From positions 1 to 61,893 of the forward strand of contig CALMZO010000261.1 of the NCBI GenBank assembly GCA_937870825.1: DNA of 61,893 nucleotides. Direction: 5' to 3'. Positions 44,511 through 55,546 of the stretch are shown here, piece by piece. The position numbers and the translations under genes were made by a program. This DNA is from an uncultured Chloroflexota bacterium. Its GTDB lineage: Bacteria > Chloroflexota > Anaerolineae > UBA4142 > SHND01. The notes under the pieces were generated by a model. That model saw only the letters and a program-made list of their open reading frames with translations, had not been told where the DNA came from and searched no databases. Numbering within the stretch: position 1 is the first letter of the stretch; each line of letters begins with the position of its first letter.

Positions 44511-44571
44511 ACATTTGACGCAAACGGATGCGCGCACGCGCAAGACGACAACGCGTCACGCGTGCAACTTT

Positions 44572-44772
44572 ACCTCTTTCATCCGGACTATACCGTCGGC
44601 TTTGGAATTTCACCAAATCCTGCTTCGACTCAAACCTATGCGTGTCTCATGGCGAACCATGTTCGTCCGACCTCACAAGTTTTATGTCGTCGCTCGTGGG
44701 CTTGTACCACCGATCGGGAATTTGTGCGCTGCGCTGGTGTTCCGCGCATCGCCCATCACCCTGCCCCGAGGT
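44572..44772 (-). ncRNA. FMN riboswitch (RFN element)
   Basis: On the minus strand the conserved RFN blocks appear in order: CCTCGGGGCAGGGTGA, AATTCCCGATCGGTGGT, AGCCCACGAGC, GGTGAAATTCCAAAGCCGAC and GGTATAGTCCGGATGAAAGAGG. P1 closes with ACCTC/GAGGT. Loop L2, normally GTGAAATTC, carries a 33-nt insertion (44723-44755) that can fold as TGCGC/GCGCA. It is downstream of its own promoter (44811-44838) and upstream of two terminators and ribY. It should switch ribY off when FMN is abundant. It lies after, not before, the permease gene ribX. Confidence 0.95.
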
Positions 44773-44810
44773 GTATTCGGTTGTCGGTCACACAGAACTT
44801 GACCGAGCCA

Positions 44811-45732: not shown

Positions 45733-45738
45733 CACAGC

Positions 45739-45811
45739 GCCCACGGACGGGCTCGAACCGCCGACCTTTTGTTTCGAAGACAAATGCTCTATCCGATTGA
45801 GCTACGTGGGC
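45739..45811 (-). tRNA. tRNA-Arg (anticodon UCG)
   Basis: A 73-nt cloverleaf on the minus strand. The acceptor is GCCCACG/CGTGGGC, the D-stem GCTC/GAGC, and the anticodon arm TTTGT-CTTCGAA-ACAAA. The T-arm has GGTTCGAGCC. The anticodon loop CTTCGAA gives UCG, decoding CGA/CGN arginine codons. CCA is not encoded. A promoter lies at 45830-45858 and a terminator at 45683-45706. Confidence 0.96.
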
Positions 45812-47723: not shown

Positions 47724-47803
47724 CAATCACCTCCATTTTCTAAAATGCTTAGATTGTGTAGACGCTTATCGTGAAAAGCGCGCCATTGTTGCTCAAAATA
47801 AAG

Positions 47804-47876
47804 GGCGACCGACGGGTTTCGAACCCGTAGCCTTCTCATCCACAGTGAGACGTGGTACCCTTCCACCACGGTCGCC
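47804..47876 (-). tRNA. tRNA-His (anticodon GUG)
   Basis: Minus-strand cloverleaf with encoded G-1 opposite C73, the tRNA-His identity feature. The acceptor is GCGACCG/CGGTCGC, the D-stem GTGG/CCAC, and the anticodon arm TCTCA-CTGTGGA-TGAGA. The T-arm is ACGGG-TTCGAAA-CCCGT. CCA is not encoded. It lies 45 bp downstream of hisS on the same strand, so it may be co-transcribed with its own synthetase. Confidence 0.96.
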
Positions 47877-47921: not shown

Positions 47922-49244
47922 TTACGCGCGACGCGTTTTTTCTTGCAGCGTCGTTGCCAATACATTGCGCGCGATTTGTTCTTGCGCGCCCGTTTGTAAA
48001 TCGCGCAGGGTTACCACATTCGCGGCGGCTTCGTCGGGTCCGATGATGATGACAAATGGAATCCCGCGCGCGGACGCGTATTTCAACTGCTTGCCCAAAC
48101 TGTCGAGGTCGTACCAAACTTCGGTGTTGAAATTCGCCGCGCGCAATTCCATCGCGACGGCGAGTGCTGTCGCGCGGCGTTCGGCATCGAACACTGTGAC
48201 AAAAACGTCCACCACTGTTTTTCCTAAATCGGGCGGATACATATCCAATTCGTCCATCACGTCAATAATGCGTTCGATGCCGAGTGATGTGCCGGTGACG
48301 GGCAGCGAATTTTTGCTAAAGAGTCCGACGAGTCCGTCGTACCGCCCGCCGCCGGTGAGTGAACCAATTTTCGGTTCCGTCACCACCGTTTCAAAAATCG
48401 GACCCGTGTAATATTCCAAACCACGCACCATCGTCAAATCAATTTGCAAACGTTCGGGCTGAACGCCGAGCTCACGCGCAAACTGGACAAGTTGCCCCAA
48501 TTCGTTAACGCCTTCGATGCCGCCCGGGTACGCGCGAAATTGTTCGCGCCACGCGTTCAAGTCATTAACGGGCAAGGCAATCAAATCAAAAATCTTCGCG
48601 ATGGTTTCCGATGAAATTTCCGCGCGCAGCATTTCTTCGCGCACGCCATCCTGTCCAATCTTTTCCAATTTATCAATCGCGCGATAGAGATTGGGGAGAA
48701 GGGCAGGAGCGACGCCGGAATATTCGCCGAGCGCGGTCAACACCTTGCGATTGTTGAGTTTTGTCACGAATTGCTTGAAACCCAATTCGCTCAAAACTGT
48801 AAAAATCATCGCGACGATTTCGGCATCGGCGAGCATGGACGACGTGCCGACAATGTCCGCGTCGCATTGATAAAACTCGCGATAACGTCCTTTTTGCGGA
48901 CGTTCCGCGCGCCACACCGGCGCGATTTGATAACGCTTGAACGGTTTGACCAATTCGGGATTCATGGCGACGACGCGCGAAAGCGGCACCGACAAATCGT
49001 ACCGCAGCGCGAGGTCTTCTTTGCCTTCGCGATGGCGCGCGTCATAAATTAATTTTTCCGCGTCGGGTCCGTATTTGCCCATTACCGTCTGCTGCAATTC
49101 AAGAACCGGCGTTTGCAATGGCTCAAAGCCGAAACGCTCAAAGACGCGTTCGACGACGCCGATAACGTAACGGCGCTTGAGCATTTTTTCCGGGAGCATG
49201 TCGCGCATTCCGCGCGGCACGCGGGGTTCGACAAACGTTGCCAT
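47922..49244 (-). CDS. hisS: Histidyl-tRNA synthetase
   Basis: A 440-residue class II synthetase that charges tRNA-His. Motif 1 is around PRGMRDMLPEKMLKRRYV, and motif 2 is RYQIAPVWRAERPQKGRYREFYQCDADIVG with its catalytic Arg. The HisA motif is LDLTMVRGLEYYTGPIFE-like (IDLTMVRGLEYYTG). Motif 3 is GGRYDGLVG...GTSLGIERI. The C-terminal anticodon-binding domain (~345-435) has VFVTVFDAERRATALAVAMELR. ATG 49244 follows AAGGATTC at good spacing and was preferred over the TTG two codons earlier. It is preceded by a His-rich leader and terminator. Confidence 0.97.
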   Translation of the reverse strand: MATFVEPRVPRGMRDMLPEKMLKRRYVIGVVERVFERFGFEPLQTPVLELQQTVMGKYGPDAEKLIYDARHREGKEDLALRYDLSVPLSRVVAMNPELVKPFKRYQIAPVWRAERPQKGRYREFYQCDADIVGTSSMLADAEIVAMIFTVLSELGFKQFVTKLNNRKVLTALGEYSGVAPALLPNLYRAIDKLEKIGQDGVREEMLRAEISSETIAKIFDLIALPVNDLNAWREQFRAYPGGIEGVNELGQLVQFARELGVQPERLQIDLTMVRGLEYYTGPIFETVVTEPKIGSLTGGGRYDGLVGLFSKNSLPVTGTSLGIERIIDVMDELDMYPPDLGKTVVDVFVTVFDAERRATALAVAMELRAANFNTEVWYDLDSLGKQLKYASARGIPFVIIIGPDEAAANVVTLRDLQTGAQEQIARNVLATTLQEKTRRA

Positions 49245-49304
49245 GTTCAAGAATCCTTTCGCGTAGCGAAAACACTATGCACGGGTGAAATGAAAAAGTA
49301 GAGA

Positions 49305-49335
49305 AACAAAAAAGGCGTGGAAAAAAATCCACGCC
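49305..49335 (-). terminator. Attenuator terminator in front of hisS
   Basis: Stem GGCGTGG/CCACGCC with loop ATTTTTTT, followed on the minus strand by TTTTTTGTTTC. It lies between the His-rich leader peptide and hisS. The GGCG of its left arm can instead pair with GCGCC (49369-49373) near the end of the leader ORF, giving an anti-terminator. Confidence 0.85.
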
Positions 49336-49362
49336 AAATTTTTTGTCAGAGAAATTTCAAAT

Positions 49363-49452
49363 TCAATCGGCGCCGCAAGAGAGCATCAACGAGTGATGGG
49401 TTGCATGAAAAACATGCACAGGATGGTGATGATGAAATGATGCTTGCGCCAT
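49363..49452 (-). CDS. Histidine-rich leader peptide of hisS (attenuation)
   Basis: A 29-codon ORF on the minus strand starting MAQASFHHHHPVHVFHATHH and ending CGAD before TGA. Eight of 29 codons are His, including a run of four. This is the hallmark of ribosome-mediated attenuation: when His-tRNA is scarce the ribosome stalls on the His codons and the anti-terminator forms. The segment GGCGC at the second codon (49446-49450) can pair with GCGCC (49369-49373), and the latter with GGCG of the terminator, giving the classic alternative 1:2, 2:3 and 3:4 pairings. The ATG is about 5 nt from the predicted transcript start, so it may be leaderless. Confidence 0.85.
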   Translation of the reverse strand: MAQASFHHHHPVHVFHATHHSLMLSCGAD

Positions 49453-49463
49453 GATTAGAAGGG

Positions 49464-49492
49464 ATTTTACCACATTCCCAAACCCGCGCAAA
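49464..49492 (-). promoter_or_regulatory. Probable promoter of the his leader-hisS transcript
   Basis: Minus-strand TTTGCG (49492-49487), 17-base spacer, TAAAAT (49469-49464). It lies just downstream of the hutH stop. The -10 box is good and the -35 box weak. Confidence 0.5.
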
Positions 49493-49496
49493 AAAA

Positions 49497-51050
49497 TTAA
49501 TGCGTCGCGTCAAAAATGACGCACGTTTGGATGAGGTGCGCCGCCATTTCCAAATCGTGACGCAACACGCGGTCGGTGTCCAAGTAGGGCACATCTTGCC
49601 GCAAGCGGCGAAACACTTGGCGCGTGCCTTCGCCCAACATATCATCGCCCTTGCCTTCATTCCGCAAACGCAAATCAATCGCTTGGGCAGCGGTGACGAG
49701 TTCGATGGCGAGAATGTGTGTGGTGTTCCAAACGATTTCGCGCAAATGGCGCGCGGCATTCGCCGCCATCGGTACGTGGTCTTCTTGATTCGCGCTGGTG
49801 GGAATCGAATCGAGTACGTCGGGATGGGCGAGCGTTTTGTTTTCGGATACAAGCGCGGCGGCGGTCACTTGCGCCATCATCAAACCGCTGTTGATGCCGC
49901 CGCGTTCAATCAACATCATCGGCAAACCGTCATTCAATTTCCCGTCGAGCATCCGAAACGTGCGCCGTTCGCTGATGCTGCCAATTTCGGCAACCGCAAT
50001 CGCCAACAACGCGCTCGCCATTGCCACCGTTTCGCCGTGAAAATTTCCGCCCGATAACGCGATGCCGTTTTCGCCTTCGACAAAAATCAATGGGTTGTCC
50101 GTCGCCGCGTTAATTTCTTCTTGCAGCCGCGCAATCGCATATTCCAACGCGTCACGCGCCGCGCCAACGACTTGGGGCGCACAGCGAATCGAATACGCGT
50201 CTTGAACGCGCTGTGCCTTGTCCACGAGATGACTGCCGCGCGTCAACTCGCGCACGCGGGCGGCGATTTCCTTTTGGCCGTGATGACGCGACGCGTCATG
50301 AATGCGCGCGTCGAACGCGTGGGACGCGCCGCGCATCGCTTCAAGCGTGAGGGCGACGGCGAGCGCGGAATGTTCAATGAGATTTTGCGCGTCGTGCGCG
50401 GCGAGCGCGATGATGGCGGTGGAAACGGCTGTACCGTTGTTGAGCGCGAGTCCCTCTTTCGCTTCCAAAATCAAACGCGGAATCGCGGCGCGCTGCATCG
50501 CGATTTTTCCGCTGACGCGTTCGCCCAGATACATCGCCTCGCCGCTTTCACGTTCCAAGTCATTTTCGTCCGTTGAAAGGACAAGCGCGAGATGCGACAA
50601 CGGCGCGAGGTCGCCGCTCGCGCCGACGGAACCTTTCGCGGGGATGATGGGATGCACGCCGCGATTCAACATTTCAATCAGCGTTTCGACAATTTCGACG
50701 CGCACGCCGGAAAATCCTTGCGCGAGCGTGTTGGCGCGAATGAGCATCGTTGCGCGCACAACCTCCTCGGGCAGTGGTTCGCCGACGCCGACCGCGTGAC
50801 TCGTAATCAGCTTTCGCATCAGGTCGCGCGCTTGTGCGGCGGAAACATGCACATTTGCAAAAATGCCAAAGCCGGTGTTGATGCCGTAGGTCATGCGTTC
50901 GCCGCGCGCAACAATGTTTTCCACCCACGCGCGACTCGCCGCGATTTTTGCGCGCGCCGATTCCGCGAGCGTCACCTTGAAATTTTCGCGCGCGACATTC
51001 ACAACGTCTTGGATGCCAAGCGTCTCACCAAGTACGACAAGATTGTTCAT
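49497..51050 (-). CDS. hutH: Histidine ammonia-lyase
   Basis: A 517-residue enzyme that deaminates histidine to urocanate. The MIO cofactor tripeptide Ala-Ser-Gly lies in GSVGASGDLAPLSHLAL, the catalytic Tyr in ERMTYGINTGFG, and NGTAVSTA and the C-terminal NQEDHVPMAANAARHLREI block are present. Length matches HutH. No other hut genes are adjacent, so the rest of the pathway is elsewhere or the enzyme serves another role such as a PAL/TAL-like substrate. The start at 51050 (MNNLVV) was chosen over 51065. It lies upstream of hisS, giving a cluster of histidine-related genes. Confidence 0.93.
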   Translation of the reverse strand: MNNLVVLGETLGIQDVVNVARENFKVTLAESARAKIAASRAWVENIVARGERMTYGINTGFGIFANVHVSAAQARDLMRKLITSHAVGVGEPLPEEVVRATMLIRANTLAQGFSGVRVEIVETLIEMLNRGVHPIIPAKGSVGASGDLAPLSHLALVLSTDENDLERESGEAMYLGERVSGKIAMQRAAIPRLILEAKEGLALNNGTAVSTAIIALAAHDAQNLIEHSALAVALTLEAMRGASHAFDARIHDASRHHGQKEIAARVRELTRGSHLVDKAQRVQDAYSIRCAPQVVGAARDALEYAIARLQEEINAATDNPLIFVEGENGIALSGGNFHGETVAMASALLAIAVAEIGSISERRTFRMLDGKLNDGLPMMLIERGGINSGLMMAQVTAAALVSENKTLAHPDVLDSIPTSANQEDHVPMAANAARHLREIVWNTTHILAIELVTAAQAIDLRLRNEGKGDDMLGEGTRQVFRRLRQDVPYLDTDRVLRHDLEMAAHLIQTCVIFDATH

Positions 51051-51114
51051 TGTGAAAAAAATCAATTGCGCCGCACATAGATTGATTCTATAATGCGGCG
51101 CACGATTGAAAGGA

Positions 51115-51443
51115 CGCCCCCGGCGAGACTCGAACTCGCAACCTGCGGATTAGCGTACTCCATCAGGTTTCCCTGACAAGCACAAAGCTTTTGGAGTCTG
51201 GACTATATCATCACTGAAAAATTCTCAGTGTCTCGCGTATAGTCTCTGAGGTGTCCGTGATGGTTCCCTGCTGATTGCCCATTGTTGCATCCAGTACACT
51301 TTTTGCGCTGTCACGCTCAATGACGTTGTAGCGGCACCGGCTTTAGGGGGTTCCAGCATATAGCGAGATTCTACCCGCGCGCGTTTTCCGTGTGCGGGCA
51401 CTCCGTGCAAAGTCCGTCGCTCTATCCTTTGAGCTACGGGGAC
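51115..51443 (-). tRNA. tRNA-Arg (anticodon UCU), interrupted by a group I intron
   Basis: Exon 1 (51443-51410) has acceptor GTCCCCG, D-arm GCTC-AAAGGATA-GAGC and the 5' anticodon stem ACGGA-CTT. Exon 2 (51153-51115) has CTAATCCGC, T-arm GCGAG-TTCGAGT-CTCGC and acceptor CGGGGGC, discriminator G. Joined, the anticodon loop reads CTTCTAA, i.e. UCU, decoding AGA/AGG. The A27-C43 pair is mismatched. The intron splits the anticodon between positions 34 and 35. CCA is not encoded. Confidence 0.92.
51154..51409 (-). ncRNA. Group I intron in tRNA-Arg(UCU)
   Basis: A 256-nt insertion ending in G (51154) and preceded by U (51410), as group I splicing needs. The internal guide GAGU just inside the intron pairs with ACUU of the exon, giving the U-G wobble at the 5' site. 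Conserved core strings are present: TCAGAGACTATACG (51249-51236) and GATGATATAGTCC (51212-51200), whose AGACTA and TAGTC parts form P7. CAATCAGCAGG fits the P/Q region. No homing endonuclease ORF fits. By size and host it is probably of the IC3 type found in bacterial tRNAs. Confidence 0.9.
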
Positions 51444-54975: not shown

Positions 54976-55258
54976 CACTTATCTCCCTGATTTTCATCAA
55001 GGCGTTGACTATCTCTTGAACTTGCACTATCTTGTTCAAGTCCCTCGGCGTATTGTAAGGAGGTTAATATAGTTTTCCTCCTTACCCTAGTACTCCATGC
55101 TTACAAGTGTAGGAGTCTATGAGTCGATGCAGGGCTTATTCTTTCGAAATCACCCCTCAGGATTAGCATAACCACCGAAAAGGTTTTAGCATTTCCTGAT
55201 AAAGCCGAGTTTGTTCCTAACAGATTTCTCTGATAGGGGGCTCGTCCCGTTTAGACAA
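54976..55258 (-). ncRNA. Group I intron in the tmRNA T-loop
   Basis: A 283-nt insertion preceded by U (55259) and ending in G (54976). GCCC inside the intron pairs with GGGU at the exon end, giving P1 with the U-G pair. Core strings are CATAGACTCCTACAC (55121-55107) and AAGAGATAGTCAACG (55017-55003), whose AGACT and AGTC parts form P7. No endonuclease ORF fits. Group I introns at this T-loop site are known in a few bacterial tmRNA genes. Confidence 0.88.
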
Positions 55259-55546
55259 ACCCGCGTCCGAAAAGTTGAACCACAAGTGACTACAAGCTTA
55301 GCCAGTCTTTGAGGATGGGCAGCTAACTTTTATTAGCAGCGCATCTTACTTGCGCAAACGGACTCGACTGTCAGAGTTGCTTGCGCCGAGCCGATAGTTG
55401 ACATGATTAATGTCTTCGTCAGATGCTATCGGCATTGCATCCGAGATACCCCATCTTGGTGACGCCCGGCATACGCGTTTTGGGGGAACCCGTATGTGGA
55501 CGCCGCAGATTTAACTGCGGACCTCGAGGAAATCCCTAGCTACCGA

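Follow-up and report, generated by a model that had tools for sequence, protein, structure and literature searches.

A predicted His-codon leader peptide and transcription attenuator in front of hisS in an uncultured Chloroflexota bacterium

Background

In Escherichia coli the pheST attenuator, with its pheM leader, is a case of leader-peptide attenuation acting on a synthetase gene. The His leader of the gamma-proteobacterial his operon (RF00514; PMC9413887, as far as its available text goes) combines a short ORF carrying a run of His codons with alternative antiterminator and terminator hairpins. Outside that group, Naville & Gautheret (2010; PMC2965389) predicted His leaders before the Bacillus genes hisS* and hisZ and, in the portion of the paper at hand, gave none as then shown outside the Proteobacteria and Actinobacteria. 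For the his operons of Firmicutes such attenuators are described by Ashniev et al. (2022), whose main text, in its accessible form, mentions Chloroflexi once and hisS never; Chloroflexi also enter the leader-gene count of Korolev et al. (2016; PMC4833913), the available part of which does not discuss a hisS case. T-boxes are reported in Chloroflexi by two surveys.

The initial annotation of the present locus knew of no described hisS case in the Chloroflexota. That statement holds in so far as we found no His leader described before hisS for Chloroflexi, Chloroflexota or Anaerolineae, judged mostly from listings; the attenuation survey of Lopatovskaya et al. (2010) may hold cases from Chloroflexi. 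It needs qualifying in that the Bacillus hisS* prediction of Naville & Gautheret (2010; PMC2965389), seen in excerpt, is a hisS-like precedent.

Results and discussion

Gene layout and proposed mechanism

The window, i.e. the whole 61,893-nucleotide stretch analysed here, belongs to an assembly of 7.2 Mb in 446 contigs. Read on the minus strand from hutH towards hisS, it contains in order a -10-like hexamer, a 29-codon ORF, a hairpin followed by a T run, and hisS (Table 1). The hisS protein scored 384 bits on TIGR00442 (cutoff 287) and the hutH ORF 571 bits on TIGR01225 (cutoff 539). A His-rich leader of 29 codons, eight of them His with four in a run, followed by a terminator, had been placed at 49305-49492 with no strand given; these coordinates fit, the ORF is present on the minus strand, running from an ATG at 49452-49450 to a TGA at 49365-49363, and a hairpin with a T run is predicted behind it.

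Table 1. Coordinates of the elements discussed in the text (positions in the window unless a locus is named)
Feature	Position	Strand	Remarks
Leader peptide ORF, MAQASFHHHHPVHVFHATHHSLMLSCGAD	49452-49363	minus	29 codons, 8 His; His clusters kept in relatives
Four-His-codon run, CAT CAT CAC CAT	49423..49434	minus	putative stall site
Segment 1, GGCGC	49446..49450	minus	pairs with segment 2 in minimum-energy fold; kept in genus
Segment 2, GCGCCGA	49367..49373	minus	candidate antiterminator 5' half; overlaps leader ORF end
Segment 3, TTGGCGT	49331..49337	minus	antiterminator partner of segment 2, or part of terminator 5' arm
Intrinsic terminator (predicted)	49308..49335	minus	stem 49335-49314, T run 49313-49308
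hisS, histidine--tRNA ligase	47922..49244	minus	presumed regulated gene
hutH, histidine ammonia-lyase ORF	49497..51065	minus	ends 44 nt upstream of leader ATG
Predicted -10 hexamer, TAAAAT, TG extension	49464..49469	minus	11 nt upstream of leader ATG
tRNA-His (GTG)	47803..47875	minus	46 nt between hisS stop and tRNA
Second His leader, before hisZ-led operon	L227 9100-9400; relatives L228-L247		found by eye

We consider it highly probable that hisS is under ribosome-mediated transcription attenuation of the type known from trp, his and pheM, with charged tRNA-His as the sensed signal. The initial proposal of such attenuation is borne out as far as sequence can tell by the ORF with its His codons, the terminator, the alternative pairing and the conservation seen in the family survey; from these we infer the start site, the stalling, the kinetics and the response to histidine. 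Transcription would start just upstream of the leader ORF, as predicted below. With ample charged tRNA-His the ribosome would reach the leader stop codon and cover segment 2, whereupon the terminator (segments 3:4) could form and RNA polymerase would halt before hisS. Were charged tRNA-His scarce, the ribosome would stall on the His run and leave segment 2 free to pair with segment 3 once this has been made, so that the terminator would be pre-empted and hisS transcribed.

Terminator and alternative pairing

The predicted terminator reads GGCGTGGA-TTTTTT-TCCACGCC-TTTTTT, with eight pairs of which six are G-C, and its T run ends 63 nt upstream of the hisS start. A terminator scan of 49800-48900 returned two hits, both of them this single hairpin read on either strand; as shuffled sequence gave a mean of 1.9, the scan alone proves nothing. 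Folding of the leader, which had been suggested as a check, gave a minimum-energy structure of -48.3 kcal/mol against -29.6 +/- 3.6 for 200 shuffles (z -5.2), and this fold includes both the terminator and a GGCGC:GCGCC pairing. The complementary segments previously pointed out, GGCGC (49450-49446), GCGCC (49373-49369) and GGCG (49335-49332), all exist, the first two being those that pair in this fold. The role of GGCGC as a pause segment fared less evenly: by eye it is found in all four leader-bearing members of the genus, but it is not at the leader start in five carriers from the other family of the order, and thus is not a general part of the system.

A second hairpin, TTTCGC-TAC-GCGAAA (49271-49257, minus strand), adjoins the hisS ribosome-binding site by eye, and the same hairpin can be seen in the leaderless relative L004. 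It would suit a leader working mainly by a translational or Rho-linked route, through coupling or sequestration of the ribosome-binding site rather than through an intrinsic terminator. Such a route appears most improbable to us, given that a stem-loop with a T run separates the leader from hisS and lies 63 nt ahead of the start of the gene.

Under transcription attenuation, segment 2, which in the window occupies positions -14 to -5 relative to the leader end, is the predicted 5' strand of the antiterminator. The window's own duplex is unremarkable against shuffles of its own strand (z -1.0, p 0.18), and among 27 leaders the duplex reached p 0.05 against shuffles of the leader's own upstream strand in nine, with a median z of -1.2. 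Partners were also exchanged between loci. Across 24 loci of the class, segment 2 and the terminator formed duplexes with a mean of -16.2 kcal/mol when paired with their own partners and -14.0 kcal/mol (sd 0.49) when permuted, and none of 20,000 permutations was as good as the true pairing. The own duplex beat the mean with other families at 18 of the 24 loci (Wilcoxon p 0.002), and the gain was 1.7 kcal/mol when one locus was taken per family. Between families, this partner-swap test alone bears on compensatory change in the two helices.

In the window's order the end region of the leader ORF carries CCGCGCC or a near form, which can form a helix with GGCGTGG in the 5' arm of the terminator, and in the alignment of all nine order carriers GGCGTGG can alternatively pair with CCACGCC. 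The helix of segments 2:3 was intact in 97.2% of the cells of this alignment versus 24-46% when the segments were slid. Both 2:3 and 3:4 are near-invariant within the order, with covariation no higher than in shuffles (for the terminator, 68 of 500 shuffles did as well); since the 2:3 helix hardly varies, covariation is uninformative at this level. Other families use other letters for the pairing, e.g. GGGTCGCGTC with GGCGTGATCC in L029, and in a few loci (L018, L014 and L202) the pairing involves a stretch deep within the ORF rather than its last part.

Folding scenarios were modelled for the 27 leaders, with no shuffled control. With the ribosome at the leader stop codon, the terminator folded in 27/27, at least 78% of its 5' arm being paired, as is to be expected because these hairpins were picked as terminators. 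With the ribosome placed on the first His codon of the cluster and the polymerase at the end of the loop, at least 6 nt of the 5' arm or loop were paired upstream in 26/27. Once the 3' arm was complete behind a stalled ribosome, the minimum-energy fold left the terminator open in nine of the 27 and closed in all others, among them the window. In the model with no ribosome, the terminator forms in the window and fails to form in eight other leaders. As so few terminators remain open in the complete RNA, antitermination must rest on the order of folding, and the attenuator switch is accordingly predicted by these models to be a kinetic one.

Predicted start of transcription

The initial annotation had named transcription starting downstream of the ORF as a finding that would count against it; by consensus call, the promoter-like -10 site lies upstream of the leader. 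All -10 sites used here are such consensus calls. In 26 of 44 leaders (14/27 hisS, 12/17 hisZ) the start codon lies 8-11 nt past the best -10-like hexamer, whereas shuffled upstream sequences gave a mean of 4.2 and a maximum of 9 (200 runs). Transcription starts about 7 nt past a -10 hexamer, which would leave few nucleotides before the AUG; the spacing thus suggests that many of the leader mRNAs are probably leaderless or nearly so. For Corynebacterium ilvBNC, leader peptide formation reportedly takes place without a ribosome-binding site (Morbach 2000), so that a leaderless start of a leader peptide would have a precedent.

Survey of hisS upstream regions

Lack of conserved His codons among relatives had been named beforehand as a ground for rejecting the proposal, and His clusters do recur: in four of the six genomes of the genus, in five of ten of the order's other family and in eight of 21 families of the class. 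Within the genus, the leaders identified by eye are those of the window and MARVVSHPHHTHHRMMFSCRAN, MAQQFLAHSHDTHHTLMLFCRAG and MAQRTWSHLHHHSHPFERLLYRAA; the other two members have no leader by eye, hisS following soon after a hutH-like end. The five of the other family are counted among ten testable genomes.

The class-wide search covered 396 genomes, 134 of which had hisS at E 1e-60, and 119 upstream regions of at least 150 nt were examined. Fourteen of the 134 lie outside the survey, nine being from family f40 and five from f5 (one of these five from the genus of L189 and L193); L024 and L180 were omitted for too short an upstream and locus L031 was added to arrive at 119. The duplicates L002 (of L001) and L032 (of L011) were removed before counting, as was L130, a gene-end artefact. 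Our filter found a terminator in 49 of the 119 regions; the presence of terminators in relatives is set by the definition of that filter and so is not independent evidence. An ORF with at least three His in nine codons and ending near the terminator was present in 25 of the 49 (24 without L130); 40 shuffles of the pre-terminator sequence averaged 1.9 such regions and never exceeded 4. Clusters of at least four His occurred in 16 regions (shuffle mean 0.28, maximum 1), and the count on the reverse strand was 0. At both thresholds His was the residue most often clustered in leader ORFs; at three or more, Arg (20 regions) and Ser (17) were often clustered too, if less so than His and each with three times as many codons.

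These counts bear on the reading in which the hairpin does no more than terminate hutH and the His-rich ORF arose by chance. Two facts would agree with it: the ORF follows the same-strand hutH at a distance of 44 nt, and the scan of 48900-49800 showed no other terminator-like hairpin. It is nevertheless very unlikely, for the order of ORF, terminator and hisS recurs in other families behind different upstream sequence, His-clustered ORFs number 25 against 1.9 in shuffles, and a -10-like site sits between hutH and the leader ORF.

In total, a His leader with terminator was found by the filter in 24/119 regions, belonging to eight of the 21 families of the class (f21 5/27, f2 5/10, f23 4/4, f1 4/6, f9 2/2, f5 2/12, f48 1/2 and f15 1/2). 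The remaining 95 regions had no His leader by the filter, and 13 families had none in 54 regions. Additional carriers in the Anaerolineae are L043, L050 and L053; L152 (MIIFNIHPHQHHPHSH) is His-rich by eye though missed by the filter, and perhaps L141 and L161 are too. At the level of the phylum, no His leader was detected in the 30 best-scoring TIGR00442 loci (best 30 of 146 hit genomes), two of which are from the same class; these are 26-32% identical to the window's hisS, and only two have a terminator by the filter. A search of 20 genomes of the order with a pattern for the segment 2/3/4 core gave fewer hits than the reversed-pattern control and missed the window's own leader, and therefore tells nothing; one hit (L226) has a true-looking terminator, but by eye the downstream gene is not an amino-acid gene.

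Outside the genus the peptides, viewed unaligned, vary in sequence and in length from 11 to 42 residues. Clustered His residues can bind metal, and so the ORF might encode a working His-rich small protein, metal-binding for example, with a terminator behind it. We give this reading almost no credence: apart from the divergence of the peptides by eye, the position before hisS, and before the his operon described next, suits sensing of His-tRNA, and the last part of the ORF often also serves as an antiterminator strand.

The hisZ-led operon and T-boxes

The same genome contains an operon hisZ-hisG-hisD-hisC-hisB-hisH-hisA-hisF, each gene over an NCBIfam cutoff. In front of it, by eye, stand a separate His leader, MFSRFDSSFVEIDAPHFAHHHHVHGVNRVRSD, and a terminator-like hairpin. 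The hisZ-like set comprised 21 upstream regions, namely that of the window genome and 20 chosen from among weaker matches, family membership being checked for the former alone. By eye a His cluster precedes hisZ in 18 of the 21, L240, L243 and L244 being those in which none was seen. The filter recovered leaders in 15 of 17 terminator-bearing regions (15/21 overall; shuffle mean 1.0, maximum 5, 100 shuffles); the extra ones seen by eye are L227, L228 and L232, whose terminators the filter missed. In an alignment of ten of the 12 order loci (L229 and L230 left out), a GGGGTGA/TCACCCC pairing was intact in 90% of cells versus 29-53% when slid, with no clear covariation. The layout of these leaders looks unlike that of the hisS leaders.

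All 20 genomes of the order sample contain T-box matches, and in 16 of them the curated cutoff is exceeded. The present genome has seven RF00230 matches, two over cutoff; the nearest downstream genes, which are putative targets, are those for aspartokinase and an AlaX-like protein (below its cutoff), trpE, pheS, valS, leuS and serS. None of the seven is on the hisS or hisZ contig, and an Rfam search found no T-box or other attenuator family at the hisS leader, either in the window or in 13 related loci.

The tRNA-His gene behind hisS

By eye there is no terminator between hisS and the tRNA-His gene that follows it, and the tRNA may be read through from hisS. A promoter-like site, TGTGTTATACT, lies just before the tRNA, so co-regulation of the two is merely possible. 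A nucleotide search found a single tRNA-His copy in the assembly; since that search overlooks tRNA-His genes that ARAGORN detects in relatives, a divergent second copy is possible. Among 114 loci with enough downstream sequence (one genome being represented twice), tRNA-His lies within 600 nt of hisS in 14, eight with a leader and six with none found, so that the neighbourhood is independent of the leader. Beyond tRNA-His there is a tRNA-Arg(TCG) at 45737-45811 (minus strand), and this pair recurs in relatives.

A wider reading, which we offer tentatively and regard as rather doubtful, is a closed loop. In it hisS and the sole tRNA-His gene found would form a read-through unit, and charged tRNA-His, sensed through a leader mRNA that is probably leaderless, would set the level of both enzyme and tRNA, beside a second, dissimilar His attenuator on the biosynthetic operon and in a lineage that uses T-boxes for several of its other synthetase genes.

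Other elements in the window

A group I intron (RF00028, 54.6 bits; 54985-55268, minus strand) overlaps the 3' part of a tmRNA gene (RF00023; 55235-55670, minus strand); ARAGORN made no tmRNA call, as would fit an interrupted gene. Another group I intron, at 51181-51419 on the minus strand (57.6 bits; within the region 51120-51440), splits by eye the anticodon loop of an apparent tRNA-Arg(TCT). In the order sample, 11 of the 20 genomes carry one or more group I introns over cutoff. The window also has an FMN riboswitch (RF00050, 84 bits) at 44567-44777 on the minus strand.

Comparison with known systems

The locus would extend leader-peptide attenuation to a phylum for which none was found described, and to a housekeeping synthetase gene. 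With T-box matches before valS, leuS, serS, pheS and trpE and a codon-counting leader at both His units, this genome is well suited to the question of why the sensing of a single amino acid should depart from that of others. The leaders that are likely leaderless pose a further one, namely whether coupling as tight as attenuation demands can be had when translation begins at a 5'-terminal AUG.

T-boxes (RF00230) likewise sense the charging of one tRNA and control synthetase genes by antitermination, but do so without a leader ORF. The pheST attenuator differs in its Phe codons, its phylum and its RNA. RF00514, with the same general design, controls the his biosynthesis operon and not hisS; it gave no match at the gathering threshold in the window, and 13 related loci likewise gave none at E 0.5. 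The hisS leader, which matched nothing in the Rfam copy searched, is a candidate for a new entry there. The predicted leaders of the bacilli, in the part of PMC2965389 to hand, likewise place a His-codon ORF and an attenuator before a hisS-family gene and hisZ. In those Firmicutes the gene is the paralog hisS*, found alongside a hisS that a T-box controls, and its leader resembles that of hisZ; in the Chloroflexota studied here the gene is a hisS that passes the TIGR00442 cutoff, and its leader does not resemble the one before hisZ. The attenuation mechanism as such is already known, and what is fresh relative to these systems is the wider histidine regulon and the probable leaderless start.
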